From Tetradesmus obliquus (taxonomy: Eukaryota; Chlorophyta; Chlorophyceae; Sphaeropleales; Scenedesmaceae), in the NCBI GenBank assembly GCA_030272155.1, contig CP126207.1:992001-1056000 (forward strand): a stretch of 64,000 bases of DNA. The letters are read 5' to 3'. Positions 44,953-63,985 of this stretch are shown in pieces. The notes beneath the pieces are model-generated. The model was not told the origin of the DNA and did no database searches. It saw only the letters and a list, made by a program, of their open reading frames with translations. The translations under genes were made by a program, and so were the position numbers. Positions within the stretch are counted from its first letter, which is position 1; each line of letters opens with the position of its first letter.

Positions 44953-45199
44953 ATGAAAATTCTGGTGGTTTTAGGCCTTGTTTTGTGTGTATCAGGTGCG
45001 TAGTGTGGCCTGGAGCCAGTGCTGCGTTGTTGCCTGAGCAAGTGTCCCGGCAGTGGAAACAGCCATGCTTTGGAAAGCAGCTGCGCATTATGCCTTGAAA
45101 ACGTTACCCAAAAGCTAGTAAGTGTTATTGCGGCAATGTAATTATTGCTGCTGCTGTGCTGGGCTGCTGCTGTACTGCGCTGCTGCTGCCACACTTGGC

Positions 45200-45239
<40 letters not shown>

Positions 45240-45507
45240 AACCTGCTGCTGCTCAGGCGCCTTAGGCTTTCAAGATGTTATAGAAGTTGACCGTCTGCTG
45301 CTGGATTCAGCTCCTGAGTCAGCAGCAGCCCCATCAGCCTGCTCTGTTGAAGGCTTTGGCACATATGGCGTGCCTGTTTACAGCATGGTGGAAGAGCCAC
45401 TTGCAAGACAGCCCAGCAGCAGCAGCAGCAGCAGCAGCAACATGCGGCTGGCTGCTCCTGCTGATGCCACAACACCAGGCGCTTATGCGCTGGCCTCACC
45501 ATCATCG

Positions 45508-45563
<56 letters not shown>

Positions 45564-48099
45564 AGATCCAGCTGACTCAGACACAGCATCTAGCAGCAGG
45601 GCTGCACAGGAGCGCATCATGCTGCAGGACATTCCAAGGTCCTTGCAGGAAAGTGGCTTGCAGGAAGCTGCGGTGCGGCAGCTGACGTCCTGCACGCCGC
45701 TGCTGACGTCTGGGCGGCTGCTGGGCATTGGTGGGCTGGCCAACTGCACGGTGAGCACCGTGATCATTGGGTTACTCGTAGATTTTCCTCTTTTTCCCTG
45801 TTGCAAGCAGTCTGTTTTGGGTTCAGAGTGGGGTGTTCAGCAGCTTGTTGCATCTTGTTTTCAACTGCTGGGCATTGGTGCGGCAGCTGGCGTCCTGTGC
45901 GCCGCTGCTGACATCTCGACGGCTGCTGGGCATTGGAGGGCTGGCCAACTGCACGGTGAGCATCATTGATCAACCAACTGGTTTCCCAGGGAGAGATCAT
46001 CCCACTGGCACCGCAACTGGCAGCGCTGCTGGACGCTTCCCATAACACCGCCACAGGCAGAGCATGCGAACTGTTCTTCTAGTTTCTGTCCAAGCAACCA
46101 ACTCGTTATCTGCCGTCTGCGTGTTCCCTTCTGTTACTCAGGGCGAGTTCATTCCCCTGGCACCTCAGCTGGCAGCATTGCCGAACTCCACCTACAACAC
46201 CACCACAGGCACAGCCGCCGCTTCCAAAACTCACACTGCCGCATGTGTTTCCAAACTGCGTGTACGTGGATAATGGTTGCAGGGCGAGTTTGTCCCACTG
46301 GCACCGCAGCTGGCAGCGCTTCCAGACTCAACCTACAACACCACCACAGGAACAGCCGGCCGCTTCCAGAACCGCCGCAGCACGCTGGGCCGTTACATTT
46401 ACAAGGCCAGTGACAGCTGCGTCGACAAAGTGACAAATGCAGCGCTGCTGTACAATTGGGAACTGATTGCGCCAGCGTATGAGCGTCTGATGATCACCGA
46501 CGTGTCGCTGCTGACGCTGCCGGCATCGAAGAGCATTGAGCCTGGGAACCTTGGCAGCCCGGCTGCGTGGGAGCCGATTTGGGCCGGCATTCATCAGAGC
46601 TTCGGCGTGAGGCCGGATGAACTCAAGGTGTGAACTTCATCTTGTCACTTCTGGATGCCTGATTCATCTGAATGTTATTGCTTTCGATTTCTGACAAGCT
46701 TGCAAGCACATATTCATTGACGGACTTGGCGGTGAGCCGGGGAACCTTGGCAGCCCGGCTGCGTGGGAGCCGATCTGGGCCGGCATTCACCAGAGCTTTG
46801 GGGTCAGGCCGGATGAATTGAAGGTGAGGTTCTGGCCGGCTGGTGTGAATATGGGCAGTTGGTCAGGCATTTGATATGAGGCGTTGCCAGGTGAAATTAT
46901 GAGGTGTGATTCACAACTGCTTGTGCTGGCTGGCATGGTGGTTTTTATTTGGGGTGGCCTTGCTAACGCTGCCGGCGTCAGAAATCATCGAGCCTGGGAA
47001 CCTTGGATCACCTGAAGCTTGGGAGCCGATCTGGGCGGGTATTCACCAGAGCTTCAGAGTCCGACCTGATGAGCTCAAGGTGGGATACTTGTGTTCAATT
47101 TGTGCTACTTACCTTGTCTGTGTAAAACTTCACTGTTGTGTGTTAGAAGCTGGTGAGCATGCTTCAAACTGACTTGATTTGGCTGTGAATGATAACACTT
47201 TGGAAGCCTTCGGCTGGGAGCCGAATTGGGCCGGCGTTCACCAGAGTATGGAGTGCGGCCAGATGAACTCAAGGTTAGAACTTCACCTTTCTGCGCTGTT
47301 TGTATTGGTTGTCCCTGGTTTGTTCACAATATGTCTTCCTTCTTGTTTAAAACAAAATCTGAAATCCTGGCTGACATGTTTTGGTTTGGATTTGGCTGTG
47401 AGCTGCGCACCCGGGCCTGTGTGGCCAGACCTTGTCACATGCTGCTGCTGAGAATGTGCGTGGTAACACCGCCAGCAGGTTGACGTTGTGTCATACGAAC
47501 ACATCACCAGCTTTTGTCTGGCCTGCTCTAAAGCGCTTCAACACACAGCTGGCTTCAAGCTCCGGCTCAGCGTCAATGGTGCTGCTGCTGCCACTGCTGC
47601 TGCGTGTTTTGTCGAATCTCTCATTGCCTGCAGGTTGACGTTGTGTCATACGAAAACATCACCAGCGATTCCCCTGTCTGGCCAGCCCTGATGGGCATCA
47701 ACGCACAGCTGGCTTCAATCGTCTGCTCAGTGTTACTAGTGCTGGGAACCTTGTTGCTCACTGGATCTTTTGCCTCTTGCCTTTTGTGGACTGCAGGTTG
47801 ATGTTGCCTCCTGTGAACACCATCAACCTGATGTGCATTGCCTCTGACATACTTCCTCCTTGTTTTGAATGCAGGTGGATGTTGTGTCATACGAGAACAT
47901 AACCAGCGATTCTCCTGTCTGGCCAGCTCTGATGGGCATCAACGCACAGCTTGCCTCCATCTCTCGCTCAGTGTCTCTGGTGCTGGGCACACTGAAGAGC
48001 GGCGCAGCCCAGCAGCAGCAGCAGTCTGTGCGCGCGGCGCGGGAGATCCTGCCAACACCTGGCACGTCACTTGGAGGCTCCCTAGCAAGGCTGCCTCAG
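44953..48099 (+). CDS. large secreted glycoprotein of unknown family, exons 1-4
   Basis: Exons: 44953-44995, 45257-45750, 46283-46627, 47875-48099. Exon 1 encodes MKILVVLGLVLCVSG, a clear signal peptide, and ends CAG|GTGCGT in phase 1, matching the phase of exon 2; later junctions are phase 0. Exon 2 begins near ALGFQDVIEVDRLL, contains Ser runs (one coded by TCA repeats at 45500-45553) and ends in sequon NCT. Exon 3 has YNTTTG and the block AAWEPIWAGIHQSFG. Exon 4 opens VDVVSYENITS and has a CAG-coded Gln run. The protein enters the secretory pathway; whether it is released, in the wall or membrane-bound is unknown. I recognise no catalytic motif or domain family. The model rests on agreement of all splice phases. 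Confidence 0.8.
44996..45256 (+). other. intron 1, no exon echo
   Basis: Separates the signal peptide exon from exon 2. Its 3' half is a CTG tract (45202-45238). Another usable acceptor (TTAG at 45265) keeps the same phase and drops three residues. Confidence 0.65.
45202..45238 (+). repeat. (CTG)n microsatellite
   Basis: About twelve CTG units just upstream of the exon 2 acceptor, in the place of the polypyrimidine tract. Confidence 0.9.
45500..45553 (+). repeat. (TCA)n microsatellite encoding poly-serine
   Basis: Eighteen consecutive Ser codons, all TCA except one TCG near the start, inside exon 2. Neighbouring Ser runs use AGC, so this tract arose independently by TCA expansion. Confidence 0.9.
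45751..46282 (+). repeat. intron 2 with echoes of exons 2 and 3
   Basis: 45878-45955 repeats the last part of exon 2 with its GTGAGC donor. 45990-46050 and 46142-46222 repeat the start of exon 3 (GEIIPLAPQ/GEFIPLAPQ), each after a CAG acceptor. Confidence 0.8.
46628..47874 (+). repeat. intron 3 with three echoes from each side
   Basis: 46733-46823, 46961-47079 and about 47205-47273 repeat the 3' end of exon 3 (EPIWAGIHQSF), each followed by a GT donor. 47479-47515, 47634-47730 and 47797-47835 repeat the start of exon 4 (VDVVSYENITS), each preceded by CAG. The copies nearest each exon are not always the closest in sequence. Confidence 0.85.
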
Positions 48100-49091
48100 G
48101 TACGTATCATTTCCCGACTGCATGATGTAAGGCCTGCTGTTGTGCTGTCATCAGCTTGCACCACACTGCACATGTCACTGAAAGAGATCCTGCCCACGCC
48201 TGGCACGTCACTTGGAGGCTCTCTGGCAAAGCTGCCGCAGGTAGGCACATTGCAATCATTGGCAGGCGGACTGCTGCTGTGCCACTACAGCTTTGGTGCA
48301 TTCTTGGCTTGGATTTTATGGTAGGGGTTTTGCTTTTGATATTAGGGTGTCACTGGTGCTGGGCACACTGAAGAGCGGCGCAGCGCAGCAGCAGCAGCAG
48401 TCTGTGCGCGCGGCGCGGGAGATCCTGCCCACACCTGGCACGTCACTTGGAGGCTCCCTAGCAAAGCTGCCACAGGTAGGCACATTGCAATCATTGGCAG
48501 GTGGATTGCTGCTGTGCCGCTGCAGATGTGGTTCAGACTATTCTTGGCTTGGATTGTATGGTGAAGGCGCGGGAGATCCTGCCAACACCTGGCACGTCAC
48601 TTGGAGGCTCTCTAGCCAAGCTCCCTCAGGTAAGTGTACTCTATGTGTTTATTTGCTGATGATCATGTTCCCGTGCTGTGGTTTTTTGTGCCTTGGCACA
48701 CTGAAGAGCGGCGCGGTGCAGCAGCAGCAGCAGCAGCAGTCTGTGCGTGCCGCGCGGGAGATCCTGCCCACACCTGGCACGTCACTTGGAGGCTCCCTAG
48801 TGAAGCTCCCTCAGGTGACTATAGGGATATTTGTACTTTCCTGTGGATTGTGATTGTTTGCCGTGCTGTGGTTGCTCGTGCCTGGGCACCCTGAAGAGCG
48901 GCGCAGCGCAGCAGCAGCAGCAGTCTGTGCGCGTAGCGCGCGAGATCCTGCCAACACCTGGCACGTCACTTGGAGGCTCCCTAGCAAAGCTGCCGCAGGT
49001 GATTGTAGTTCTATTTGAGTGTTTTTTGGTGGTTGTGTTGTTTGCTGTGCCGTGGTTGCTTGTGCCTGGGCACCCTGAAGAGCGGCGTGAC

Positions 49092-49126
<35 letters not shown>

Positions 49127-49835
49127 CTGTGCGCGCGGCGCGGGAGATCCTGCCCACGCCTGGCACGTCACTTGGAGGCTCCCTAGCAAAGCTGCCTCAG
49201 GTATGCATGATTTCCCGCATGCATTATGTGAGGGCTGATGTGCTGTCATCAGCTTGCACCACACTGCACATGTCACTGAAAGAGACCATGCCCACGCCTG
49301 GCACGTCACTTGGAGGCTCTCTGGCAAAGCTGCCGCAGGTAGGCAGGCGGACTGCTGCTGTGCCGCTACAGCTTTGGTGCAGACTATTCTTGGCTTGGAT
49401 TTTAGGGTTGGGTTTCGGATTTGGTTTGGGATCAGGGTGTCACTAGTACTGGGCACCCTGAAGAGTGGCGCGGCCCAGCAGCAACAGCAGTCTGTGCGGG
49501 CGGCGCGGGAGATCCTGCCGACACCTGGCATGTCACTTGGAGGTTCACTGGCCAAGCTGCCTCAGGTACGCATCATTACTGGCATGCATACTGCGGCTGC
49601 TGCTGTGCTCTTCACAGCTTGCACCAGCAGCAACTGGCGGCATCCAGGACGCCATCTACAAGGTGCTGTGCAGGGCCGCCAATGCTGCTAAGCCTTGCAA
49701 ACATGTTGCAACCATGTGTTGTTCAGGCTGCTGGCAGCGTTTCTTGCACCCAGGATGCAATGTACAAGGTGCTGTCCCACGCACGCATTTTACACAGCTG
49801 ACATATCATCGTCCCGTGATGCCCCTCTTTTGCAG
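48100..49835 (+). repeat. intron 4 with eight echoes of exon 4 and two of exon 5
   Basis: The segment LVLGTLKSGAAQQQ to SLGGSLAKLPQ with its GT donor recurs eight times, donors at 48241, 48476, 48630, 48815, 48999, 49201, 49339 and 49566. Two copies (donors 48241, 49339) share another derived upstream segment, so they were duplicated as a pair. The embedded CAG tract varies from about 5 to 12 units (longest near 49092-49126). Exon 5 starts are echoed at 49618 and 49727. Confidence 0.85.
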
Positions 49836-50524
49836 GCTGCCGGAAGCATTTCCGGCATCCAGGACGCAATCTACAAGGTGCTCTCCACGCAAGCTCTGTA
49901 CAATGGCACCGAGCTTGTCACAAGCCGGCGGCTGGTGCGCTCCGTGATCCATCAGGTGGCAACAAGCAACGGCCTGCTGCCAAAAGCTGCGGAGGCAACA
50001 GTCAACGGCACTGCTGCTGCTGCTTTTGATGGTGGCCGGCTGTCTGGCTTGAACGAGACAGATGTGAAGATCCTGCTGGACATCGTGGCCACGGTGAGTG
50101 TGATGGTTTGGCTTTTGTGTTGTTGGCAGTTCATTCAAGAATGTATGTGTCTATTTAACGTCTGTCCGGGCCAGGGCTGGCCGCAGTCAGCTGTGCCTGA
50201 ACGTCATAGGAACATGCAAATTTGGCCACATCTGCTGTGTTTGCGCCTTCCTGCTGCTGCTGCTGCCGCCGCCGCCGCTGCTGCTGCTGCTGCTGCTGCA
50301 GACTGTCTCCGAGTCTAACCGCGAGCAGCTGCAGCCCCTGATCGACCTGGCTCTGCACTGCGCATACAACAGCAGCATCCAAAGCGAAGCTAGGTGCAGG
50401 CCTACCACTATGTCCATTGCCATTGCTGCAGTGGCCACAGTGCAGCAGTTCAACATGACAGATGACTTCATGCGGCTGACTCATGCTGTGCTGGCATCTG
50501 GAAAGCTTCCGGATGCCCAGAGGG

Positions 50525-50560
<36 letters not shown>

Positions 50561-52835
50561 CTGATGTGGCTGTTGAGGAGGTACTGCCGGCTGAAGATGC
50601 TGATGCTGATGCAGCAGACATTATTGTGGATGCTCCAGCAGACCCCGCAGCAGCAGCAGAGGGAGTACAGGAGGTTGTCACCAATGCTACAACAGCAGCA
50701 GCAGATGGCAATGCAACTGACGCAGGCAGCAGCAGCAACAGCAGCAGCAGCGCTGTGGGTACTGCGGCTGTCGGAGCAGCGCCCAGGCTGATACCAGCAA
50801 GGGCAGCAGCAGCAGCAGCATGCAAAGACGGCAGCGGTGCATGCGCAAGCCCAGCAGGACGCAGCCAGCAGCAGCAGCAGCAGCAGACAAGGCGTTCCAG
50901 GCCAGCCGCCGCCGGCCGCGGCAGCAGCAGCAGGGTCTCTGCTGCTGCTGCTTCATGCTCAACGTGTGCTGCTTGCGACTACAGCTCATATGCTCCTGGG
51001 GAGTATCCTGACAGCTGCCCTCCTTACTTTGTGAGTATCAGTTTTCAGCTGGATGCATTGTATTATTGGATGCTATCAGTGCTTGCACTACATTCAAACT
51101 TTCATTAGCACGGTTGTATCACCCTGGGGGGAGGACCCCGGCAGCTGCCCTCCATACTTTGTGAGTAGCAAAAACCAGCAGCCTTATGCAGCACCTCTAC
51201 CCAATTGTTGTCCTGTAACTTGCATGCTGCAAGTTGGATGGATGTGCACGTAGATTTTCCCTATTTCTGCGAGCATGTGTCATCTGGCTCTATTCGCTGG
51301 TTTGCCCAGTCTTTTCCACCCACTTCATCACAAGACTGTGCCTTTGACTTGACCTGCTACAACCTTGCTTGTGTGTTGCTTGTAGGACTATGGCAAGAGG
51401 AAGCTGGCTGACTATGCCCGCAAGTACAGGTGAGCAGCAGCTGCTGCAGCAGCGTTGACAAGATGTCTTGTTGCGCAACGTTTGGTGTGCCAGTGATGCT
51501 GTTTCCGAGTGTTTCGCATTGGCAATGAAAGGTTATGCCAGCACAAGAGCAGCAGCTGCAGCACACATGCTTTTTGGCAGTCCTCACATGCAGTTTTCAG
51601 CTGCAACAGAAGGCGCCTGTTTCTGGCTACAGACAACATCATCTGCTTTCAGCTGGTGTTTTGGCGTGACATCCGCCTGTGATGCATCGGCTGCAAGTTG
51701 CTGTGTCCAGCTGATATGTTGATGTGACAACGTCACATGTTTCTTACTTCTCTGTTATTTTCTGTTACTAACAGGTACGATGACGACTCCTGGGGTCAGA
51801 TGGAGCCAAATGGCAATGAGGTGCAGGTGCCGCGGCGCAAAAAGGGCCTGCTTGGTCTGCTTGGCCTGCTGGGTTTGCTGGGCCTCATTGGAGTCTTCCC
51901 TGCAGGTGAGTTAGTGAAGGTTAAACTTCACAGAGTGCATATTCACGTTTAGCATGTTTTGATGGTTGTACGGCAGCAAATTCATGCTTGAGCAAGCAGG
52001 GACTGCTGGGGCTTCTGGGTTTGCTGGGCCTGATTGGAGTCTTCCCTGCAGGTGAGGGGCGAAAACATGTTACTTTGTTTGAATGCACGGAAATTTGAAA
52101 GCAGCTGTGACACGAATGGTCATGCAGCATGTGTCGACATACTGAGGCTGTGCTGCATGGCGATCACAGGTCTGCTATTCAAAAGCTGCTATCCCTGATC
52201 CCGCATGTACGATGAAGGCCACAGTTAATTATGCAACCTGCTGCACTGCTGCCCTGCTGCTTTCCAACCACTGCTGCGCCTGCAGGTGGCCTGCTGATCA
52301 ACCTGCTGGCACCTCTGCCACTTTACGTCCTGCCGGGCCTCTCTTGTAACACACCACTTGATTTGTGACGTTATTGTTCTGCTGCTGCCTCACTTGCTGC
52401 TGTCTGCAGGTGGCCTACTCATCAATCTGCTGGCACCTCTGCCCCTTGGTACGATCGTCATCCTGCCAGGCCTCGTACTGTCTCCCTTTTTGGCGCCACT
52501 CACGATGCATCAGTCAAACGGCGTCATGCCTTGGTCTTTCGGCGGCAACTGCAACCTGCTCGGGCGGCCCGTCGACAGCGTCCTCGGCAATACGCCCGCC
52601 GACATTCTCGCTCTTATTCCATCGAAGACGTGCCTGCCGCCGGGCTGGCTGTACAACATCGGAAACTTGACCGCCGGCGGGTTCCCGGACTTGACTGCGA
52701 GCCTGCCGCACGGAACAGTCATTTTGAATAATGACACGTTATACGTGCCTCCTGGGACGTCTGAGAAGCATGCAGAGGCGTTTGAGGGCCTGCCAGGGTT
52801 CAACCAGACCATCTGGACCGGCACTAATGACACAG
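49836..52835 (+). CDS. same gene, exons 5-9
   Basis: Exons: 49836-50093, 50302-51030, 51386-51429, 51775-51905, 52410-52835 (phases out 0, 0, 2, 1, 1). Exon 5 has sequons YNGT, VNGT and LNET. Exon 6 (243 codons) starts TVSESNREQLQPLIDLALHC and turns into Ser, Ala, Asp and Gln-rich low complexity with basic patches, ending CSTCAACDYSSY...CPPYF. Exon 8 encodes RRKKGLLGLLGLLGLLGLIG, a hydrophobic Leu/Gly run that continues through exon 9 (GGLLINLLAPLPLG); this could be a membrane segment or hairpin. Exon 9 is the least repetitive, with Cys-containing stretches (GGNCNLLG, SKTCLPPGW) and sequons NLT, NDT and NQT, and reads like a folded extracellular domain I cannot name. Confidence 0.8.
50094..50301 (+). 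other. intron 5, no echo
   Basis: No copy of a neighbouring exon seen. Ends in a CTG/CCG tract (50251-50300) directly abutting the CAG acceptor. Confidence 0.6.
51031..51385 (+). repeat. intron 6 with one short echo
   Basis: About 51123-51160 repeats the exon 6 end (GSCPPYF) with its GTGAGT donor. Confidence 0.75.
51430..51774 (+). other. intron 7, no echo
   Basis: Ordinary-looking intron from GTGAGC to TTACTAACAG; TACTAAC matches a classical branch-point motif placed very near the acceptor. Nothing else seen. Confidence 0.6.
51906..52409 (+). repeat. intron 8 with echoes of exons 8 and 9
   Basis: About 51998-52051 repeats the GLLGLLGLIGVFPAG end of exon 8 with a donor. 52286-52350 repeats the exon 9 start (GLLINLLAPLPL) after a CTGCAG acceptor. 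Confidence 0.8.
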
Positions 52836-53136
52836 GTAGGTGCTTTGCCTGTAGCTAAATCAGGCATGACATATGCTCTGCTGCACTGTTATTTCATGTA
52901 GTACTTGCATCTTTCGAGCCAAAGGACGCAGTGTTGCGGCTCTGCTTCTGCTGTTTTTGCACCTAGCCATACATGTCAGTTCAACAAGTCCAGCTGCATC
53001 ATGCAGCTCCCACCATTTATCATTCTGTCACTTGCTGCTGCTGCTGCAGTGCTCTCCGCCGACATGCAGCACATGATGGAGCTGGTGGAAAGCGAATAAG
53101 GAGGCCCCACAGCAGACTTGACTGATCTGATTCTTG

Positions 53137-53167
<31 letters not shown>

Positions 53168-53679
53168 AGTGCTCTCCGCTGACATGCAGCACATGATGGA
53201 GCTGGTGGGAAGCGACCAAGGAGGCCCCACAGCAGACTCGACTGATCTGAATCTTGCTGCTGCTGCTGCTGCTGCTGCAGTGCTGTCCGCCGACATGCAG
53301 CACATGATGGAGCTGATGAGATGTGACCATGACGGCCCCACGGCAGACTTGACTTGATCTAACTCCTGATGTGCTGCTGCTGCTGCTGCTGCAGTGCTGT
53401 CTGCCGACATGCAGCACATGATGGAGCTAGTAGGATCTGACCAGGGGGGGCCTACAGCACAATTGACTCGATCCAACTCTTGATGTGCTGTAGCTGCTGT
53501 TGCTGCTGCTGCTGCTGCTGCCACAGTGCTGTCGGCCGACATGCAGCACATGATGGAGCTGGTGGGAAGAGACCAGGGAGGCCCCACAGCAGACTCGACT
53601 CGTCTGAATCTTGCTGCTGCTGCTGCCGGCCGACATGCAGCACATGATGCAGGTAGTTGGATCTGGCCACACTGACACT

Positions 53680-53712
<33 letters not shown>

Positions 53713-53930
53713 AGTGCTCTCCGCTGACATGCAGCACATGATGGAGCTGGTAGGAAGCGACCAAGGAGGCCCCACAGCAGACTTGACTGATCTGACTGCT
53801 GCTGCTGCTGCTGCAGTGCTCTGCGCCGACATGTAGCACATGATGAATGTAGTAGGAAGTGACCAAGGAGGCCCGACAGCAGACTTGACTGATCTGACTC
53901 TTGCTGCTGCTGCTGCTGCTGCTGCTGCAG
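52836..53930 (+). repeat. intron 9: eight echoes of the exon 10 start
   Basis: A unit of (CTG)n-CAG, the exon 10 start (VLSADMQHMMELV) and a TTGACTGATCTGA tail repeats with a period near 110 bp. Echo starts are near 53050, 53170, 53281, 53395, 53527, 53627, 53715 and 53817, before the real exon at 53931. Nearly all keep the AG acceptor; none has the second half of exon 10. Confidence 0.85.
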
Positions 53931-54749
53931 TGCTGTCCGCCGACATGCAGCACATGATGGAGCTGGTGGGAAGCGACCAAGGTGGTCCCACAGCAGATGC
54001 AGCAGTGGTCATCAACCCCTCACCTGATGTGGGCCCGTCTGATCGAAACACGGCTTTCAACTTCCATGGCAGCAGCATGTGCATCGCAGCAGGGCCGCCT
54101 CCAGGTGAGATGAGAGCAAATGAGCTGTACTTATTTGATGCACTTCTACTTTAGCATGCACAATGAGTGCGCAGATCATCAAGAGCGATGCACTTCCACG
54201 GCAGCAGCATGTGCATTGCAGCAGGGCGGTGTAAGCAACAGCCTCCTGTCCCGCCCAGCAGCTGTCGCCCATCAAGCCCCTGCCAGGACCAGCACCCATA
54301 ACTGACATCGCTGCTGCTGCTGCTGCTGCTGCTGCCGCTGCTCTGCACAAACAGCCTCCCGTCCCGCTCAACAGCTGTCGCCCATCAAGCCCCTGCCAGA
54401 CACCAGCACCCATAACTGACATCCCTGCTGCTGCTGCTGCTCTGCACAAACAGCCTCCTGCCCCCCTCAGCAGCTGTCACCCATCAATCCCCTGCCAGAC
54501 ACCAAAGCATATGCATGACGCTTTTGCTGCTGCTGCTGCTGCTGCTGCTGCTCTGCACAAACAGCCTCCTGCCCCGCCCAGCAGCTGTCGCCCATCACGC
54601 CCCTGCCAGACACCAGCACCCATGTCTGACATCACTGGTGCTGCTACTGCTGCTACTGCTGCAGCTGCTGCTGCACAAACAGCGTCCTGCCCCGCTCAGC
54701 AGCTGTCACCAATCAAGCCCCTGCCAGACACCAGCACCAGTAACTGACA

Positions 54750-54798
<49 letters not shown>

Positions 54799-54875
54799 GC
54801 ACAAACAGCCTCCTGTCCTGCTCAGCAGCTGTCACCGATCAAGCCTCTGCCAGACACCATCACCCATAACTGACA

Positions 54876-54913
<38 letters not shown>

Positions 54914-55009
54914 GCTGCTGCCGCTGCTCTGCACAAACAGCCTCCCGTCCCGCTCAACAGCTGTCGCCCGTCAAGCCTCTGCCAGACACCAGCACCCATG
55001 TCTGACATC

Positions 55010-55062
<53 letters not shown>

Positions 55063-57588
55063 GCGCAAACAGCGTCCTGTCCCGCTCAGCAGCTGTCACC
55101 AATCAAGCCCCTGCCAGACACCAAGGCAAACTCAAAGGAGCCAAGGCAGCTCTTTGGCACCTTCATGGGCATCGGTTACATCAGGTCATGCTCGGTGAGT
55201 AATCCGCCACATGCTGACTCAGCAGATTACGCCATGTGCTGTTGGACACCTTAATGGGTGTTGGTTACATCAGGTCATGCTCGGTGAGTAATCCGCCACA
55301 TGCTGACTCACTAGATTATGACAGCCAACACCCACCCACAAATCACAAGGTGAATAATGTGGTGAAACAAAAGTGGCTCCATGTAAGGTGCAGCACTGCT
55401 CAAGCTTGTGCTGGTTCTGATCAAGATGTGTCACAGCTCAGCACTGACCAGCCCAATATAAATAGATCATAGTCTTTCATTGCTCATTGACCTTGCCATT
55501 GCCTTTGCATGTGCATCTGCATCTGCAGGGTGACTACTACTCCTACTCCAACCTCAATGGATCGGTGGAGGATGTGTCCCTGCTCAACGTCGACCGGCCA
55601 TTCAAGCTCATCTACAAGGATTTCACAACCGGCCCAGGGCAGGCCGAAGACACAACCTCTGGCGCTTTTGGTGTTGACCATGCCACTGGCGCAGGCCACG
55701 TGAGTGCTGATGTGTGGGATTTTGGATGTCTTTGAGGTCTAGGGTTTGAACCTCGACCGGCCATTCAAGCTCATCTACAAGGACTTCACAACCGGCCCGG
55801 GACAGGCAGAAGACACAACGTCTGGCACCTTTGGCGTTGACCACGCCACAGGAGCCGGCCACGTGAGTGCAGATGTGTGGGTTTTAGGGTGTCCTTGCTG
55901 TCAAGGGTTTTGGCTTTCCAATGGGCAAAGTGAGCACAGTATATCGCTGCCTATGTTTCAGTTGATGGATGAATTTGTGACCGGCCATTCATCTACAAGG
56001 ACTTTAGAACCGGCCCGGGACAGGCCGAAGACATGACTTCCGGCGCGTTTGGTGTTGATCACGCCACAGGAGCCGGCCACGTGAGTACTTTGTTTACATT
56101 TAGGCAGTACTGGGTTTAGCGTAACTATTGTTTGAGGTGAATGGGCAAAGCGTGCAGAGTGAACTGCTGCCATTGTATAAGTTGCTGCATGGCTTTGTAA
56201 CCGGCCCGGGGCAGGCAGAAGACACAACCTCTGGCGCGTTTGGCGTCGACCACGCCACTGGAGCCGACCATGTGAGAGCATATGTGTGGGTTTTAGGGTG
56301 TCTTTGCAGTGTAGGGTTTTGCATTTTAATTTTGAATGGGCAAAGTGTGCAGAGTAGACCCCTGCCATTGCATGAGTTGCTGCATGGACTTTTGACCGTC
56401 CCTGCTGCTGCAAGTGTCTTGCAGGCTGTGCTAACAAACGCGTGGGCTTGTGCAGCGGAGAGGCCTCTGGTGGATCGCTGCATTGACAGCTGGACAGATG
56501 TGCCATCTAAACTCTGCTGTTGCTGCTGCTGCTGATGCCGCTGCTCTTGTTTTGCAGGCTGTGCTGACAAATGCATGGGCCTGTGCAGCTGAGAAGCCTC
56601 TGGTGGATCGCTGCGTCGACAGCTGGACAGATGTGCCCCTGAAAGTGCCAGTGGCAGGCCTTATGCCCTACCCGGCAGAGGGCGCGGAGGACCCGGACAG
56701 TAACATGTTTGTAACAGTTACGCCCGTGGCAATGACAACGCTGGGAGACACGTCGAGTGCGAGCATCAGGAGCAAGTATGCCACAGCTTTTACAAAGCTG
56801 GCGGTGCAGATGCCAAGCACAGCCAACCCAGTGCATGCAGGTGCGTAGGTCAACTCCTTGCTTCTGTTGTGATATTTGCACTTGATGATGTTGGCATGGT
56901 GCTAACAAGCTGGCTGTGCAAATGCCTGCAGCCAACACCGTGCATGCAGGCGCGAACGAAATTGCTGATGATGGTGAAAGTAGGTAAGTATGGCTGGTGT
57001 TGGCCATGCTGTTTGTGTGCTTGACCTGAGCCACACGCACACTATTGCTTCATTCACCTATTGCATGCTTGCAACAAATCAGCTAATCGCTGCTGCTGCT
57101 GCTGCTGCTGGGACCTGCAGACCCGCTGCGCCTGCTGCGCACGAAGGAAGAGCGCGACGTCAAGGCTGCAATCGGCATGCTTGTCAACAACGCCAAGATC
57201 CTGTCACACTCACTGCTGCTGCTGGTGCTGATGCTGCTGCCGTAAACTGCAGATCCCCTGAGACTGCTTCGCACGAAGGAAGTGCGCGATGTCAAGGCCG
57301 CAATCGGCATGCTTGTCAACAACGCCAAGATCCTGTCACACTCACTGCTGCTGCTGCTGCTGCTGCTGCCACAAACTGCAGACCCGCTGCGCCTGCTGCG
57401 CACCAAGGAGGTGCGCGACGTGAAGGCAGCAATCGGCATGCTTGTCAACAACGCCAAGATCCTGTCGACGTTGACGGCTGCGCGCGCGCTGTACGAGTGT
57501 GCCAATGGCGCGGATGCGCGCCTGAGCAATGAGCTTTTTACGCAGTGGGCTCAAAGCCTGGTGGACTCTACCACCATGCACAGCGCAG
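53931..57588 (+). CDS. same gene, exons 10-14
   Basis: Exons: 53931-54104, 55073-55194, 55529-55699, 56558-56840, 57382-57588. Exon 10 starts VLSADMQHMMELVGSDQGG; exon 11 uses the acceptor AAACAG after a long CTG tract and reads ASCPAQQLSPIKPLPD; exon 12 reads GDYYSYSNLNGSVEDVSLLN and carries KDFTTGPGQAED; exon 13 has AVLTNAWACAAEKPLVDRC and VDSWTDVPLKVP; exon 14 has DPLRLLRTKEVRDVKAAIGM. Exons 13 and 14 join directly in phase 1. An optional 30- or 34-nt exon at 56950 is possible; only the shorter form (donor GTAGGT at 56980) keeps frame. No family assigned. Confidence 0.8.
54105..55072 (+). repeat. intron 10: seven echoes of the exon 11 start between CTG arrays
   Basis: The block CACAAACAG plus exon 11 start (QLSPIKPLPDT) recurs near 54239, 54353, 54452, 54562, 54682, 54807 and 54940, each separated by (CTG)n of varying length, the longest at about 54751-54796 and 55011-55060. 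About 54190-54227 echoes the end of exon 10. Confidence 0.85.
55195..55528 (+). repeat. intron 11 with one long echo
   Basis: About 55240-55315 repeats the exon 11 end (GYIRSCS), its GTGAGT donor and some 25 nt of the intron nearly base for base, which shows that the duplication spanned the junction. Confidence 0.85.
55700..56557 (+). repeat. intron 12 with three exon 12 echoes and one exon 13 echo
   Basis: 55749-55862, about 55976-56080 and 56198-56271 repeat the KDFTTGPGQAED to HATGAGH segment with donors; 56425-56510 repeats the exon 13 start after GCAG. Confidence 0.85.
56841..57381 (+). repeat. intron 13 with one exon 13 echo and two exon 14 echoes
   Basis: About 56905-56949 repeats LAVQMPxANxVHA; 57121-57210 and 57253-57341 repeat the exon 14 start (DPLRLLRTKE to NNAKILS), separated by CTG runs. 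Confidence 0.85.
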
Positions 57589-58733
57589 GTGGGATACGCG
57601 GGAGGGGGCACTGATGTGACCAGACTGAATTCATGCTAAGCCATTTGCGCAGTGAGCACGTTTGTGATCTGGCTGTGCGAGTGTGCCAATAGCGCGGATG
57701 CGCACCCAAGCAATATGCTGTTCACGCAGTGGGCTGAAAGCCTGGTTGATTCAACAACAATGCACAGCGCAGGTGCGTGTTTGTGGTGCTTTCCCCATGT
57801 TGTACCATGATTTATTGCCATCAGCAATAAGCTGTTCACACAGTGGGCTCAAAGCCTGGTTGGCTAAGCCATGCACAGCGCAGGTGCGTGTTTGTGGATT
57901 CCCCTCCTGTTTTGCACTGTGGAGTGCTGCCCTGAGCAAAGGGCTGATCATGCAGTGGGTGGCGAGGGGACATACAGCATACCTGTCTCATGTGGCAATG
58001 TTGCAATCTTGTTCCTTGCTGCCGTGAACTTCACACCTGAAGTGATCTTGAACTTCAAGCTGGAGGGGCTGTGCCTGAAGGGCAGCTGCACATAGCACGC
58101 ATAACGCATGTGACAGTGTGTCGAACTTCTCACTCTATGCTTGTTGAACTTTGCACCTGCAGTGATCATACACTTCAAGCAGGAGGGGCTGTGTCTGAAG
58201 GGCATCTGCATACAGCACACTGACATCTAGCAACAAAAGTTTACACTCTTTGCTGCCGTGAACCTCACACCTGCAGTGATTATAAACTTCAAGCTGGGGG
58301 GCTGTGCCTCAAGGGCAGCTGCACACAGCACAGTCACATCTAACAACAAAAGTTCACACACTTTGCTGCCGTGAACTTCACACCTGCAGTGATCATGAAC
58401 TTCAAGCTGGAGGGGCTGTGCCTCAAGGGCAGCTGCACACAGCACACTCACATCTAATAACAAAAGTTCACACTCTTTGCTGCCGTGAACTTCACGCCTG
58501 CAGTGATCATGAACTTCAAGCTGGAGGGGCTGTGCCTCAAGGGCAGCTGCACACAGCATGATCACTTGACACAAAGAAATGTTCACACTCTTTGCTGCCA
58601 TGAACTTCACGCCTGCAGTGATCATGAACTTCAAGCTGGAGGGGCTGTGCCTCAAGGGCAGCTGCACACAGCATGATCACTTGACACAAAGAAATGTTCA
58701 CACTCTTTGCTGCCATGAACTTCACGCCTGCAG
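57589..58733 (+). repeat. intron 14: exon 14 echoes, then a ~115-bp array of exon 15 starts
   Basis: 57673-57772 and about 57822-57883 repeat the exon 14 end (FTQWAxSLV to MHSA) with donors. Then a segment reading VNFTPAVIMNFKLEGLCLKGSC repeats about every 115 bp, starting near 58018, 58138, 58251, 58365, 58479 and 58596, with the used exon last. The later copies are almost identical, so the array is youngest at its 3' end. Confidence 0.85.
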
Positions 58734-59282
58734 TGATCATGAACTTCAAGCTGGAGGGGCTGTGCCTGAAGGGCAGCTGCAGTGAGGCTGCCACGTCAGC
58801 TCTGATGGCGGTTTCAAAGGAGCTGGCCGCAATCAAGGTGGGTGCTGTTTCTGGCTATTTGCAGCTGCATTTTGCACAGTAGATCAGCATGCGACTTGTG
58901 CAGTGAAGCCGCCACGTCAGCGCTGACGGCGGTGTCCAAGGAGCTCGCTGCCATCAAGGTGTGCACTACGTCGATTCGCTTTGTTGTTTTCATGTAGATG
59001 TGCACATGTTCTCAGCTGCCCAAACACCCTATTCTTCGACAGCTTTCACAACTGTTCACAACCCCAAATGCACGTCCCCTGGCTCCCTTTCGCCTCCAGT
59101 ATCATCTCCAAGAGCTCCAGCACCTCACCTTCACCGCTGCTGCTGCTGCTGCTGCTGCCGGTGTGTGTCTGCGGTTGTGTTACTTGCAGACGCGTTATGA
59201 CGCGCTTGACAAGGGCAGCGTGCCGCCCCTGTACAATGGCACGGTGTACATAATCCTTCTAGCAGTCTTGCCTACATTCTCG

Positions 59283-59322
<40 letters not shown>

Positions 59323-62300
59323 GTATCTTTAATTACAGACGCGTTATGACGCGCTTGACAAGGGCAGCGTGCCGCCGCTGTCGCTCTATGACGACGTTGT
59401 GCGCATCACAAAGTTGGCACGTGTGGGACAGGAGGATCTTTACAGTGCCATCCGCCAAGTAAGCTGTTACACGGAGTAGCAGTTGTAATGGTGCTTGTGG
59501 TATCGACAATGCTATGTGCTGTCTGTGTACGATGGCGTGGTGCGCATCACCAAGCTTGCTCGTGCGGGGCAGGAGGATCTCTACAATGTCATCCGCCAGG
59601 TAGACTGTTACAAAGGGTGACAGCTGTTATAACGGTAAAACACACTTGTCAGCAAAATGGTGCGCGTGAATCAGGCAGGCGTCATCTGTGCGGGGCACCT
59701 GCCGTGGTTGTAAGATTCATGCTGTTGCCAGCGCTGCCTCATTTTTTGTTGCCTTCCCCCTGCTGCTGCTGACAGCGCTGTCGCCGTGTTCCTGCTGCCA
59801 TGCACTTGGTGCGCTTGCTGTGGTGCTGACATGCATTGCTGTCGCAAGTGCTGCCTTACAGCTCTGGCCGCCAGCTGCTGCGTGCAGCGCTGCCGCTGTG
59901 TTGCCCTTTGTCTCTGCACCGGCACTTGTAACCTTACCCCCATGTACACTGCCACCTCCTCGCAGTGCTGCGGCCTGGGCACACCCAACACAGCAGCCGC
60001 AGCGGTTCCCTCCACCACTGCCTTCACCCTGCTGCTGCTGACAGCGCTGCCGTTGACCTGTCTCTGTCCTACAACAGCACTGCTAACCTTTTCAATTGTT
60101 CTTCTGCCTGCTCGCAGTGCTGCGGCCTGAGCGCTCCCGACACAGCAGCAGCAGCAGTTCCCGTCACCACTGGTGCAGCAGCAGCTGACCTGTCTACAGT
60201 TGCAACACCATCTTCAGAAGATGATGCCAGCGCAGCAACAGCAGCGTCCCAGCCTCCAGCTGATGCTGCTGCTGCTGCCCAGCCGCCGGCGGCTGCTGCT
60301 GACAGCGAAGCGCTTGGCAGTTTTGTGCGGCGGTTGAATGACATGGTCATTGCAGCACCCGTGAGGCTGTCAGAAATCCAGGCAACACTGCAGGTGAATT
60401 GATTGGCTGCTTGGCATCAAGTTCAACTGGCTGTTTTGAAGCATGTGGTGTATTTTGTGCGGCGGTTGAATGACATGGTCATTGCGGCCCCTGTGCGGCT
60501 GTCAGAGATCCAGGCAACACTGCAGGTGCGCTATTTACAACAGTAAATGCTGATTACTGTTGTGCACTGCTTCATGTTGTGTTGTGTGGCGGCTGAATGA
60601 CATGGTCATTACGACACCTGTGAGGCTTTCGCAGATTCAGGCAACACTGCAGGTGCGCTGTTTCAATCAATCAACGAAGCAGCAGCGCTATCATTCAAGA
60701 CGCAGCACTCTTGTCTGTTTGTAAACGTGGGTCCCAATGCACAACGGTTCCTTTGACTTGTTTTCAGCGCATCCAAAGATGTATAGAAAAATGCTGTTTG
60801 TGTGGGTTGAGTTTGATTGAATCTAATGCCTTCTTTGGCTTTCGCTCTGCTGCCTGCAGGTTGATGGAGCAGCAGCTGTGAGCGGCACGGGCGCCCTGGC
60901 TTCCTTTGAGGCAGGAGGCCTGCGCATGGTCGGAACGCTGCTCAACAGTGGAGGCATCACACAATGCAGGGTGGGTGCATCCGGCTTATGGGTCATTTTG
61001 AACTGAGGTTGATGCGGCCAACAATCAACAGCGGCAACACTGTCACCCCTTGCAGGGCCAGCCCTCAGCTTTTGAGCAACAGCAGCGGCAGGATTGTTGG
61101 GCTTGTGTTTGTGTATTGTGTGTTACATGCGCGCTGGCACCCTTTGAAGCAAGAGGTCTGCGCATGGTCGGCACACTACTGAACAGCGGAGGCATCACGC
61201 AGTGCAGGGTTTGTTGCGGCATCAGGAATTGATGGTTGAATGTGAGCTGTCAGTATGAAACAAGTCTAGCATGGCTAGGTGCACATGGTTGGGACGCTGC
61301 TCAACAGCGGAGGCATCACGCAGTGCAGGGTGAGTTGTTATGTCAGGCACCAGCAAACCAACAAGCCTGGTATGTCTAGATGCGCATGGCCGGCACACTA
61401 CTGAACCACTGAGGCATCACGCAGTGCAGTGTGAGTTGTTATGTCAGGAATCACCCTTGCTGCTGCTGCTGCTGCTGCCGCAGGGTGAGATGCTGCCGCT
61501 GCTTTCAGGTGGCTTGCAGCAGCTGCTGACAGATGGTACCGGCCAGTTCGTGGTTGAGGGCCCCACTGCTGCCCGCTTCAAGTTCAGCACTGCTTACAAA
61601 GCCAGTCGGCATTCTTAAAGCTGCTGTGATGTTTGCCACTGCTGCTGCTGTCGCAGGGTGAAATGCTGCCGCTGCTGTCTGGCGGCTCTCAGCAGCTGCT
61701 GACAGATGGTACAGGCCAATTTGTTGTTGAGGGCCCTACCGCTGCCCGCTTCAAGTTCAGCACTGGGTATGAGGCCAGCCGCTGCGTGGATTCTGTCACT
61801 GGCGTAACCATCAACTTCCCCATGATCCAGGTGCGTGACTGCGTCAGCATTGCTACATTTCTGTCACAAGTTGCATCAATGTTTTCTGTAACAGTTTAAA
61901 ACATGTAGTTCGGTGGCGGCAGCTGTGTGAATTCCGTCACTGGTGTCACCATCAACTTTCCAATGATCCAGGTGGGTGGCTGCATGGCTGTGTGCTGTCG
62001 CACATGCACAAAAGCTCAGCATGATTAGCTGCAGCGATGAGGCCAGCAGCTGTGTGAATTCCGCCACTGGCGTAACCATCAGCTTCCCAATGATCCAGGT
62101 GAGTGATTACGGTGCAAGTGTTGCTTGTTGCGAGCTAACAGCCTTGTTTACAACTGTCAAAAACCTGTGCAGAGCCTGCTGCTGGTGGGTTGAATCTCAG
62201 CATTGCCTACGTGGCCAGCTACTGCGTGGACTCGCTTATTGGCATCATCGCTTGTGTCCTATGCTGCTGCTGCTGCTGCTGCTGCTTGCAGGATGTGCCC

Positions 62301-63985
62301 GCCACTGATGCCACCACCATCACAGCCATCTCCTTGATGGTGGGAGCGGCAAAGACAGACCCCGAGGTAAGCCGATGACAATTGCAGCCCCACCAGCGAA
62401 GGTGTTGCCAGCTCTACTATCACCTCGCGCTTGATTAGCGATTCAGTTTGTGCTGTGGAAACCTCACCTTGACTTGCGCCTGCTGCTGCTGCTTCCCCAG
62501 CTGGCGCAGCGCCTATTGGTTAATGCGGCTTCAAGGTGGTCCTTGGTGTTTCCATGGCAGTACTTGTGGTGTTGTTCACTTCCCGTGTCGGTGCTGCTTC
62601 TGCCGCTGCAGGTGATGAAGCGCATGCCAAATGCCCAAGCCGAGTCGCTCGTCCCTGCGTACCTCTGGCAGCACGTGTACGGGCTGTATGGCTTTGATTC
62701 TGAGGCGCTGGGTGTGGACTTCATGACCTTCAGCGGCGACGCTTTGAGGTTCAGCAGCCCGCGCTCTGCACAGGTGAGGAGCCAATTGCTGATGCGGTGG
62801 GCTGTACAACATGTTATGCAACAATGCTGTGAAGTGCGCTTGGCGTTGACTTCATGACGTTCAGCGGCGACGCTTTGAGGTTCAGCAGCCCGCGCTCCGC
62901 ACAGATGATGAACTGATTGCTGCTGCAATGGGCTGTATAACATGTTATGCAACAATGCTGTGAGGTGCGCATGGTGTGGACTTCTTGACTAGCGATGCTT
63001 TGAGGTACAGCTGCCCCCGCTCTGCACAAGCGCACACACAGTTGTGATGTAAGTGCATTGCCGCGCACTGGAATGCTGCAGCAAGCTGGATTGACCTATT
63101 TGACGTGTCTACCCATGTTCCTGCAGGTGCTAGGCAACGTGGCTCAGACGATGAGCACGTACATGTCGGCCTTCAGCCTGCTTGGTGGCCTCTTTGGCGG
63201 CGACAAGGTGGGTTGCAGTGCTAGCCATTGCTGTGCTAGCCAAGTTTCAAGGTTTTTCTGTTTGCAATTGTTTGGCTCCAACAGCAAGCAGTCATGGGGT
63301 GTCTGCCTTCAGCCTGCTGGGTGGCCTCTTTGGTGGCGACAAGGTGGGTTTAGTGCTGGCTTGGTTTAGCGGTACTACGATTTATGACTGTTCTGCTCAA
63401 GCAACAAGCAGCCGCAGCTTAGCTTGCATTCAGGCAGTGGTGTATGTTATTGTAGCAGCTATATATTAAAAATCACAACAGATGACGGCTTGATGTTGCA
63501 TAACACTGCTGCTGCCGCTGCTGCTGCTGCTGCAGGTGTCCAAAGACCTGCTGGCCGGCTGCATTGTGACGGCCACGTACAACACCATCTCAGCAGCAGC
63601 AAAGGGCGGCCGCAACGCCATGGCCACACTCACTGACAGGTGCGGCCAGCTTGCGCGCACCAGGGGATCCTAAACTGCCAGCATTATTTTTACATGGTTA
63701 TAAGAATGTTATATGTATCATAAATTAGATTAGGCCGCATATGACGCCTGGCGGCCGCAGTGGATCCGAAACTGCCAGAACTGTGGCGTTATACATTGTT
63801 ATAACATTGTTGTTTCTTGGTCATATGCTCCTTGCAGGGCCGCCATTGTGAAAATCTATGAGGCTGCATACGACGCCTGCGCCCCTCAGGCGCGCAGGAG
63901 GAGCCTGCAGCAGGCGGGCTTCTTCGCGCGTATGACCGACGACCAACAAGCAGCTCGGCAGGCGCTGTTCAACGCCACTGCAGGG
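58734..63985 (+). CDS. same gene, exons 15-24, continuing past the window
   Basis: Exons: 58734-58837, 59339-59458, 60118-60393, 60860-60970, 61657-61830, 62292-62366, 62612-62773, 63127-63207, 63536-63639, 63838-63985. All phases agree. Landmarks: VIMNFKLEGLCLKGSC (15), TRYDALDKGSVPP (16), CCGLSAPD then an Ala-rich linker and FVRRLNDMVIAAPVRLSEIQ (17), GGLRMVGTLLNSGGITQC (18), GEMLPLLSGG and GVTINFPMIQ (19), GVDFMTFSGDALRFSS (21), FSLLGGLFGGDK (22), VSKDLLAGCIVTATYN (23), AAIVKIYEAAYDACAP and FNAT (24). The last donor GTGAGT at 63986 shows that the gene continues. Total in window is 5,007 coding nt, 1,669 codons, no stop. Confidence 0.8.
58838..59338 (+). repeat. intron 15 with one echo from each side
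   Basis: About 58900-58958 repeats the exon 15 end (SALTAVSKELAAIK) with donor; 59190-59240 repeats the exon 16 start (TRYDALDKGSVPPL) after TTGCAG. CTG tracts precede both acceptors. Confidence 0.8.
59459..60117 (+). repeat. intron 16 with echoes of exons 16 and 17
   Basis: 59527-59599 repeats the exon 16 end (VVRITKLARAGQEDLY) with donor; 59966-60025 repeats the exon 17 start (TGCTGCGGCCTG) after TCGCAG, shifted in frame. Confidence 0.75.
60394..60859 (+). repeat. intron 17 with two echoes of the exon 17 end
   Basis: About 60454-60525 and 60584-60652 repeat the segment for VRRLNDMVIAAPVRLSEIQ, both with GTGCGC donors. Confidence 0.85.
60971..61656 (+). repeat. intron 18 with three exon 18 echoes and one exon 19 echo
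   Basis: About 61136-61208, 61281-61329 and 61379-61428 repeat the RMVGTLLNSGGITQC segment; the third has lost its donor and gained a stop. 61484-61615 is a long copy of exon 19 after CCGCAG. Confidence 0.85.
61831..62291 (+). repeat. intron 19 with two clear echoes of the exon 19 end
   Basis: About 61912-61971 and 62038-62098 repeat CVNSVTGVTINFPMIQ with donors; 62192-62245 is a weaker third copy. A CTG tract (62261-62287) precedes the exon 20 acceptor. Confidence 0.8.
62367..62611 (+). other. intron 20, no clear echo
   Basis: Nothing convincing beyond a CTG-rich stretch and the CTGCAG acceptor. Confidence 0.5.
62774..63126 (+). repeat. intron 21 with two decaying echoes of the exon 21 end
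   Basis: 62839-62904 repeats GVDFMTFSGDALRFSS but its donor is AT instead of GT; about 62967-63028 is a shorter, more diverged copy with a deletion. Confidence 0.8.
63208..63535 (+). repeat. intron 22 with one echo of exon 22
   Basis: 63302-63343 repeats the exon 22 end (AFSLLGGLFGGDK) with the same GTGGGT donor. Confidence 0.8.
63640..63837 (+). repeat. intron 23 with a weak exon 24 echo and an internal duplication
   Basis: About 63732-63770 resembles the EAAYDA part of exon 24. A GGATCC-AAACTGCCAG segment occurs at 63664 and again at 63756, about 92 bp apart. Confidence 0.5.

Follow-up and report, generated by a model that had tools for sequence, protein, structure and literature searches.

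In genes of the Dscam type, tandem duplication of exons goes together with mutually exclusive splicing, and in silent-cassette systems gene conversion takes place into an expressed copy. Tandem duplication inside genes is also a known route of intron gain (PMC3443670, PMC4974935). In the AGGT model, the intron has on either side a copy of an exon segment that contains AGGT (PMC3443670, PMC4974935). Internal gene duplication across exon-intron borders is the subject of Gao and Lynch (2009), as cited in the two papers above (PMC3443670, PMC4974935). Among the papers listed in literature searches, at the level of titles and the first lines of abstracts, no pattern such as the one described below was found, which does not prove its absence.

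The genome of Tetradesmus obliquus is given in a published table as 108 Mb with 57% G+C and a mean intron of 462 bp (PMC5966456). The assembly used here amounts to 104.66 Mb in 17 contigs, with a mean G+C of 57% (17 loci). The window, that is, the whole stretch of 64,000 nucleotides that was analysed (C17:992001-1056000), carries on its plus strand, at 44953-63985, the first 24 of a gene's 26 exons. In our hand-built model, these exons join into a stop-free frame of 5007 nt and all introns are GT-AG; exons 25 and 26 lie beyond the window and complete the gene, the end of which would fall at window position 65945. This model was used instead of the seed model of an ab initio gene finder, which had 22 of the 26 exons exact and 85 predicted. 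The full protein has 2123 aa. As judged by eye, it shows a signal-like start and one hydrophobic TM-like segment in exon 26, outside the window, and the product is membrane-protein-like. Pfam gave no family in the 487 N-terminal residues or in exons 6, 9, 13 and 26, and no homologue of residues 150-1700 appeared at E<=0.001 among 7999 scored candidates. Exons 3 and 26, searched in the genome, had no match outside their own gene.

Ahead of this gene, from ~1000 to 44600 of the window, a 4282-bp unit is repeated head to tail about ten times, and this array stops some hundreds of bases short of the gene. Eight comparisons of neighbouring units, over 4000 bases each, gave an identity of 1.0000; at least one residue sets the last copy apart. 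Minus-strand frames of the unit resemble a DDE transposase (DDE_3, E 4e-5, below the cut-off).

When the 25 introns were compared with the 26 exons by BLASTN (simple repeats masked, E<=1e-3), 71 exon-edge matches were obtained, all on the plus strand, 38 of them to the upstream exon and 33 to the downstream exon. We call the intronic copies echoes, upstream or downstream according to the exon copied. At the same threshold there was no match in the 600 non-adjacent intron-exon pairs, none on the minus strand, and none to adjacent exons when the introns were resampled 20 times by a Markov-1 procedure. Non-adjacent pairs gave 584 matches at E<=10 (262 plus, 322 minus), so that weak matches are uninformative. 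The exon border is reached within 2 nt by 64 of the 71 matches, which cover 4667 of 14621 intron bases and represent about 69 copies, because a masked CAG run splits two copies in intron 4. No whole exon is copied, the largest fraction among the 71 matches being 0.72. Among the echoes ending at most 2 nt from the border, GT is kept in 31/34 upstream ones and AG in 30/30 downstream ones. In all ten introns with both types, the copies of the upstream exon come ahead of those of the downstream exon. Adjacency, direction, anchoring on the border and order must all follow from any duplication that is local, direct and crosses the border, and such a duplication also leaves the outermost splice site with the full exon. 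The pattern is thus that of short local direct duplications across exon-intron borders, which leave an exon edge and its splice site in the intron.

A first-pass annotation of this DNA had described copies in 19 of 23 introns. Its pattern is confirmed, with a corrected count: by BLASTN, matches occur in 18/23 introns of the window and in 19/25 of the whole gene. Its statements that upstream copies come first and downstream copies last, that the copies are local, direct, border-anchored and lengthen the introns, and that a donor or acceptor is mostly attached agree with the geometry above. It had also suggested that the intermediates of a known path to new introns, the tandem duplication of an exon segment with AGGT in it, may be preserved here. 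AG/GT is indeed found at 16/25 junctions. However, we deduce from the AGGT model that downstream-exon sequence should stand at the beginning of the intron and upstream-exon sequence at its end, and the order is the opposite in each of the ten introns that can be judged; likewise, GT follows the upstream copies and AG precedes the downstream copies, not the reverse. This proposal is scarcely credible, and the echoes look like additions to existing introns. An assembly artefact may also be envisaged, the region being repeat-rich and adjoining the array of 4282-bp units. It would have to account for 71 diverged pieces spread over 19 introns and for the same type of pattern at loci on several contigs, and is highly improbable.

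The echoes of the window are all on the plus strand and are distributed as follows. Intron 2 (45751-46282) holds one upstream and two downstream echoes, and intron 3 (46628-47874) three and two; the first upstream echo of intron 3 has 8 DNA changes, with a protein 100% identical over 30 residues. Ten upstream matches, representing eight copies of the end of exon 4, are found with two downstream echoes in intron 4 (48100-49835). Intron 6 (51031-51385) has one upstream echo. One echo of each type is present in intron 8 (51906-52409), both with differences 0/0/5 by codon position. Intron 9 (52836-53930) contains eight downstream echoes of the start of exon 10, one of them partial, at steps of 102-132 nt plus one of 188, and intron 10 (54105-55072) has seven downstream echoes of the start of exon 11 after one upstream echo that ends 9 nt short of the border. 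The single upstream echo of intron 11 (55195-55528) has a homologous intron flank. Three upstream and one downstream echoes lie in intron 12 (55700-56557), and one upstream echo, its GT lost, and two downstream echoes in intron 13 (56841-57381). Intron 14 (57589-58733) carries two upstream and six downstream echoes, with a tandem array at steps of 113-120 nt. One upstream and one downstream echo are seen in intron 15 (58838-59338), one upstream echo in intron 16 (59459-60117) and two in intron 17 (60394-60859). Intron 18 (60971-61656) has three upstream echoes and one downstream echo (differences 1/2/15); intron 19 (61831-62291) has three upstream echoes, one stopping 37 nt before the border. 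Finally, intron 21 (62774-63126) holds two upstream echoes, both with GT lost, and intron 22 (63208-63535) one. Introns 1, 5, 7, 20 and 23 show no echo at E<=1e-3.

The differences between echoes and exons are strongly structured by codon. They number 72, 61 and 370 at codon positions 1, 2 and 3, which is not the even spread over codon positions of neutral debris, and 246 of the changed codons in gap-free alignments are silent against 95 that are not. Third-position divergence is about 0.24, with the protein conserved. A neutral echo next to an exon under constraint is expected to give about 1:1:2 at most. Neutral decay was simulated in 400 runs with echoes matched to each observed divergence: the third-position share, 0.736 as observed, had a simulated mean of 0.454 and a maximum of 0.515. 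For the closest echo of each of 29 edges the share is 0.787 (simulated maximum 0.578) and for the farthest 0.679 (maximum 0.540), the simulated means for all echoes and for the closest per edge being 0.45-0.46. A net length change is found in 10/71 echoes, with a simulated mean of 29.4 and minimum of 19; in-frame stops, in 4/71, are within the simulated range (mean 8.7, minimum 1). The third-position excess also exists outside the exon's lineage, since the changes found in the closest echo alone are distributed 6/5/16 and nine pairs of sister echoes differ 3/7/14. The bias is present both with and without an alignable flank (10/11/65 and 27/28/140 for upstream echoes, 12/5/73 and 16/11/76 for downstream echoes). 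The copies in the window gene have evolved like coding sequence, not by plain decay, and the earlier term 'decayed' does not suit them.

Other sources of this excess were considered. Base-context mutation bias, with mutability estimated from repeat pairs in other loci, is rejected, the predicted mutabilities of the three positions being near equal (0.130, 0.134, 0.128). Conservation of the echo at the nucleotide level is disfavoured, as the echo's own branch is codon-structured. Gene conversion alone would, by our reasoning, be unable to push the third-to-first ratio past about 2. A paralogue as the source of the echoes is set aside for exons 3 and 26, the two exons searched, which are without a match outside their own gene.

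In the simplest scheme, that of the first-pass annotation, border-spanning tandem duplications would have occurred repeatedly and the copies would then have decayed without function or exchange. It accounts for adjacency, direction, anchoring and order, and it fits the echoes of three other genes (see below). However, none of the 400 simulations reaches the observed third-position share, so that this scheme is already disfavoured for the window gene, and the comparison of flanks adds to the difficulty. Taking flanks of different introns as a null, 24/34 upstream echoes are alike in their exon part, yet their intron flank is not alignable above the 95% null (for example, 0.74 against 0.72 in the second 10-nt bin), and the flank is likewise not above it in 11/30 downstream echoes; a homologous flank is present in 10/34 and 19/30, respectively, the flanks in introns 9, 10 and 13 being rich in CTG runs that blur the comparison. 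In 21/34 array members, the best flank partner differs from the neighbour by exon part, although in some of these incongruences the distances compared are very nearly equal. In three of four arrays, the similarity of the flanks does not correlate with the distance between exon parts (r = -0.15, +0.15, +0.13). The fourth array, that of intron 14, shows congruence (r = -0.71, p 0.02), the outcome expected of plain tandem duplication. Duplication followed by nothing but decay is, on balance, rather unlikely for the window gene.

The arrays show, in addition, some signs that may point to exchange between copies. Four-gamete site pairs, which recurrent mutation can also produce, make up 12/29 in four arrays, and the nearest copy is the least diverged one in 7/15 arrays. 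Incompatible site pairs are not clearly farther apart than the others (27.0 v 22.5, 20.2 v 20.2 and 17.8 v 12.8 nt). Exchange itself is something we infer. As to the composition of these introns, CTG-type runs (at least 4 units, sense strand) number 32 against 4 CAG-type runs, the exons having 3 and 12; CTG repeated three times or more occurs within 45 nt upstream of 11/25 acceptors of the window gene.

The splice sites kept in the echoes are often different but good ones: 29/34 echo donors have scores inside the span of 3.5-9.3 given by the 25 real donors, on a matrix trained on the gene's own real sites. From the sequence it is plausible, as had been supposed, that the splice machinery chooses among near-identical sites. 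The step lengths of upstream echoes are multiples of three in 6/34 cases, with 18 and 10 in the other two classes; splicing at a wrong donor would in most cases change the reading frame, because the steps are seldom multiples of three. Could the echoes be translated at present, as alternative exon edges or mini-exons, through an unrecognised splicing scheme? The protein-level constraint and the kept splice sites would favour this. However, an in-frame acceptor scoring at least 2.5 is found in 10/34 upstream echoes and an in-frame donor scoring at least 3 in 2/30 downstream echoes, two counts that have no random control; the best second acceptor is spread over the frame classes as 13/11/10; read-through is open and in frame in 5/64 steps; and no match copies a whole exon. 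Present-day translation by such a scheme is judged unlikely. Simple cassette exons were rejected, most echoes being without an in-frame second splice site, and so was plain read-through, with 59/64 steps closed. The echoes are one-sided: each has an exon edge and one splice site, and most are without a usable second site.

Another possibility would be that the copies come from strongly diverged alleles or from a diverged lineage (a hybrid, a sex-linked or a long-balanced locus) and were deposited recently, so that their divergence would be an old coding divergence. The third-position divergence beside a conserved protein is consistent with this, as is the fact that upstream flanks, where alignable, are diverged too. 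But very deep alleles would be needed here and not at the other genes studied (GSH1-like, LHC, EFTUD2-like), and exons 3 and 26 are again without a match elsewhere. This origin seems quite improbable.

The explanation that we prefer, tentatively and with a little less than even confidence, is that the arrays left by border-spanning duplication consist of interchangeable exon edges, rotated by unequal exchange. Persistent arrays of copies would act as a pool of such edges. Unequal crossing-over would involve an exon edge and a copy located on either the sister or the homologous chromosome, and would have two outcomes. In the deletion, the stretch between the two would be lost and what had been an intronic copy would become the exon edge, bringing its own donor or acceptor; in the gain, a stretch would be added and the former exon edge pushed into the intron. 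A copy would be under protein-level and splice-site selection whenever in exon position. Intronic copies would be mainly silent-diverged and mostly frame- and site-keeping because they were selected while exon edges; in the same way, they would bear marks of coding selection without present translation because they were exon edges in the past. Rotated copies would often carry differing intron flanks and would need no second splice site, and young copies that never rotated would simply decay. The near absence of inverted local repeats (see below) is in keeping with this explanation. Against it weigh the small numbers, the spacing of incompatible sites, the congruence of the intron 14 array, the CTG-rich flanks of some arrays, the neutral-looking echoes of three other genes and the rarity of period-3 mismatch outside the window gene. 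It may further be imagined, with some doubt, that exon ends are drawn from an intronic reservoir and that recombination continually changes which copy is the exon. Borders would then be rebuilt by DNA exchange with the protein unchanged, intron growth and shrinkage being a by-product.

Local duplication is not peculiar to this gene. In 25 systematically placed 10-kb loci (simple repeats masked), 231 direct and 2 inverted repeat pairs were found within at most 4 kb, the pairs being non-independent and one locus being a satellite; local direct repeats make up a median of 12% of each locus. The satellite (L024, 1-3959) has a step of ~279 bp, and its shifted self-matches are 93-98% alike. A period-3 mismatch pattern is seen in 11/32 local repeat pairs of the window gene and in 11/89 elsewhere. 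Splice-like sites are shared at 26/109 repeat ends, 72/360 interior points and 8/545 random positions; the repeat ends have no special enrichment in splice sites, because interior points of the same alignments are similar.

Echoes were then sought in five gene models. In the scan of long frames, 11/20 had a Pfam match at E<=0.01, and four models were picked by Pfam matches: Hsp70, a GSH1-like ligase gene (label resting on GCS2), an LHC gene (Chloroa_b-bind), and a GTPase gene we take to be EFTUD2-like from the look of the protein, Pfam giving GTP_EFTU. The fifth, OYE-like, was picked because it showed the pattern, its Pfam match to Oxidored_FMN being below the cut-off. Together they have 15 echoes in 12/28 introns: 6/9 in the OYE-like gene so chosen, 2/5 in the EFTUD2-like, 3/3 in the GSH1-like, 1/7 in the LHC and 0/4 in the Hsp70 model. 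The differences of the GSH1-like, LHC and EFTUD2-like echoes together are 11/8/18, as neutral decay predicts; those of the OYE-like echoes are 9/7/29, with unsure codon labels in the first two echoes (5/45 differences). Two cases are nearly or fully identical. The exon end of a uracil phosphoribosyltransferase (UPRT) gene on the minus strand (L033, 6093-6273) and its intronic copy agree at 49/50 positions (98% identity), with the same CAG/GT and with both surroundings unrelated. In the EFTUD2-like gene, also on the minus strand, a 137-bp unit in 2.4 copies (L026, 2627-2959) comprises the acceptor and the exon start; the copies have no differences and extend 54 nt into the exon. Profile coordinates point the same way. 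Profile steps that overlap their neighbour by at least 60% number 5/49 in chaperonins (4/12 gene clusters), 4/100 in kinesins (2/35) and 4/56 in Hsp70 (2/9). The starts agree within 2 residues in 8 of these 13 steps, as those of downstream-type echoes should; the other five are less clear, and the C4 chaperonin step may be a plain overlap of two exons. These coordinates alone suggest echoes in chaperonins, kinesins and Hsp70s. The restriction to one gene in the first-pass annotation has to be given up, both by sequence and by profile coordinates, such copies being present in ordinary housekeeping genes too.

If introns grow by border-spanning duplication, there would be a simple and testable cause for intron length and for redundancy of splice sites. 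Should the copies take turns with the exon edge, what lies in the introns would be a selected reserve rather than junk, and there would be an explanation for a class of local repeats that may be taken for exons by gene finders. Graded cases exist in this genome, from copies without a difference to arrays of eight, so that stepwise dating could be possible.

How does the window gene compare with the systems mentioned at the outset? The arrays next to its exons, whose copies are diverged and for the most part keep the frame, recall the Dscam type, but here the copies are one-sided, with a single splice site and no whole exon. Mutually exclusive exons would combine an acceptor and a donor in compatible frame over a copied whole exon; since no match is a whole exon with two sites, this is not mutually exclusive exon duplication. 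As in silent-cassette systems, the echoes would work as a reserve of spare sequence, but their differences are mostly silent, there is no protein diversification, and exchange is here conjectural. Introners and other mobile introns place similar sequence at many unrelated loci; here exon 3, as DNA and as protein, matches its own gene only, and the echoes match adjacent exons only. With intron gain by tandem duplication, as in the potato RdRp case (PMC4974935), the locus shares a duplication that supplies splice signals, but the window gene is without sign of a new intron and the order is reversed. Internal gene duplication (Gao and Lynch, 2009, as cited in PMC3443670 and PMC4974935) is closest in that the duplications are local, direct and within the gene. 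The window gene differs in the number of copies, up to eight per exon edge, in the share of introns concerned (19/25), and in a divergence that is coding-like and accompanied by some signs of exchange among the copies. The echoes, being local, direct, adjacent and inclusive of the border, are best filed as internal border-spanning duplication, and what is new is the presence of arrays with coding-like divergence.
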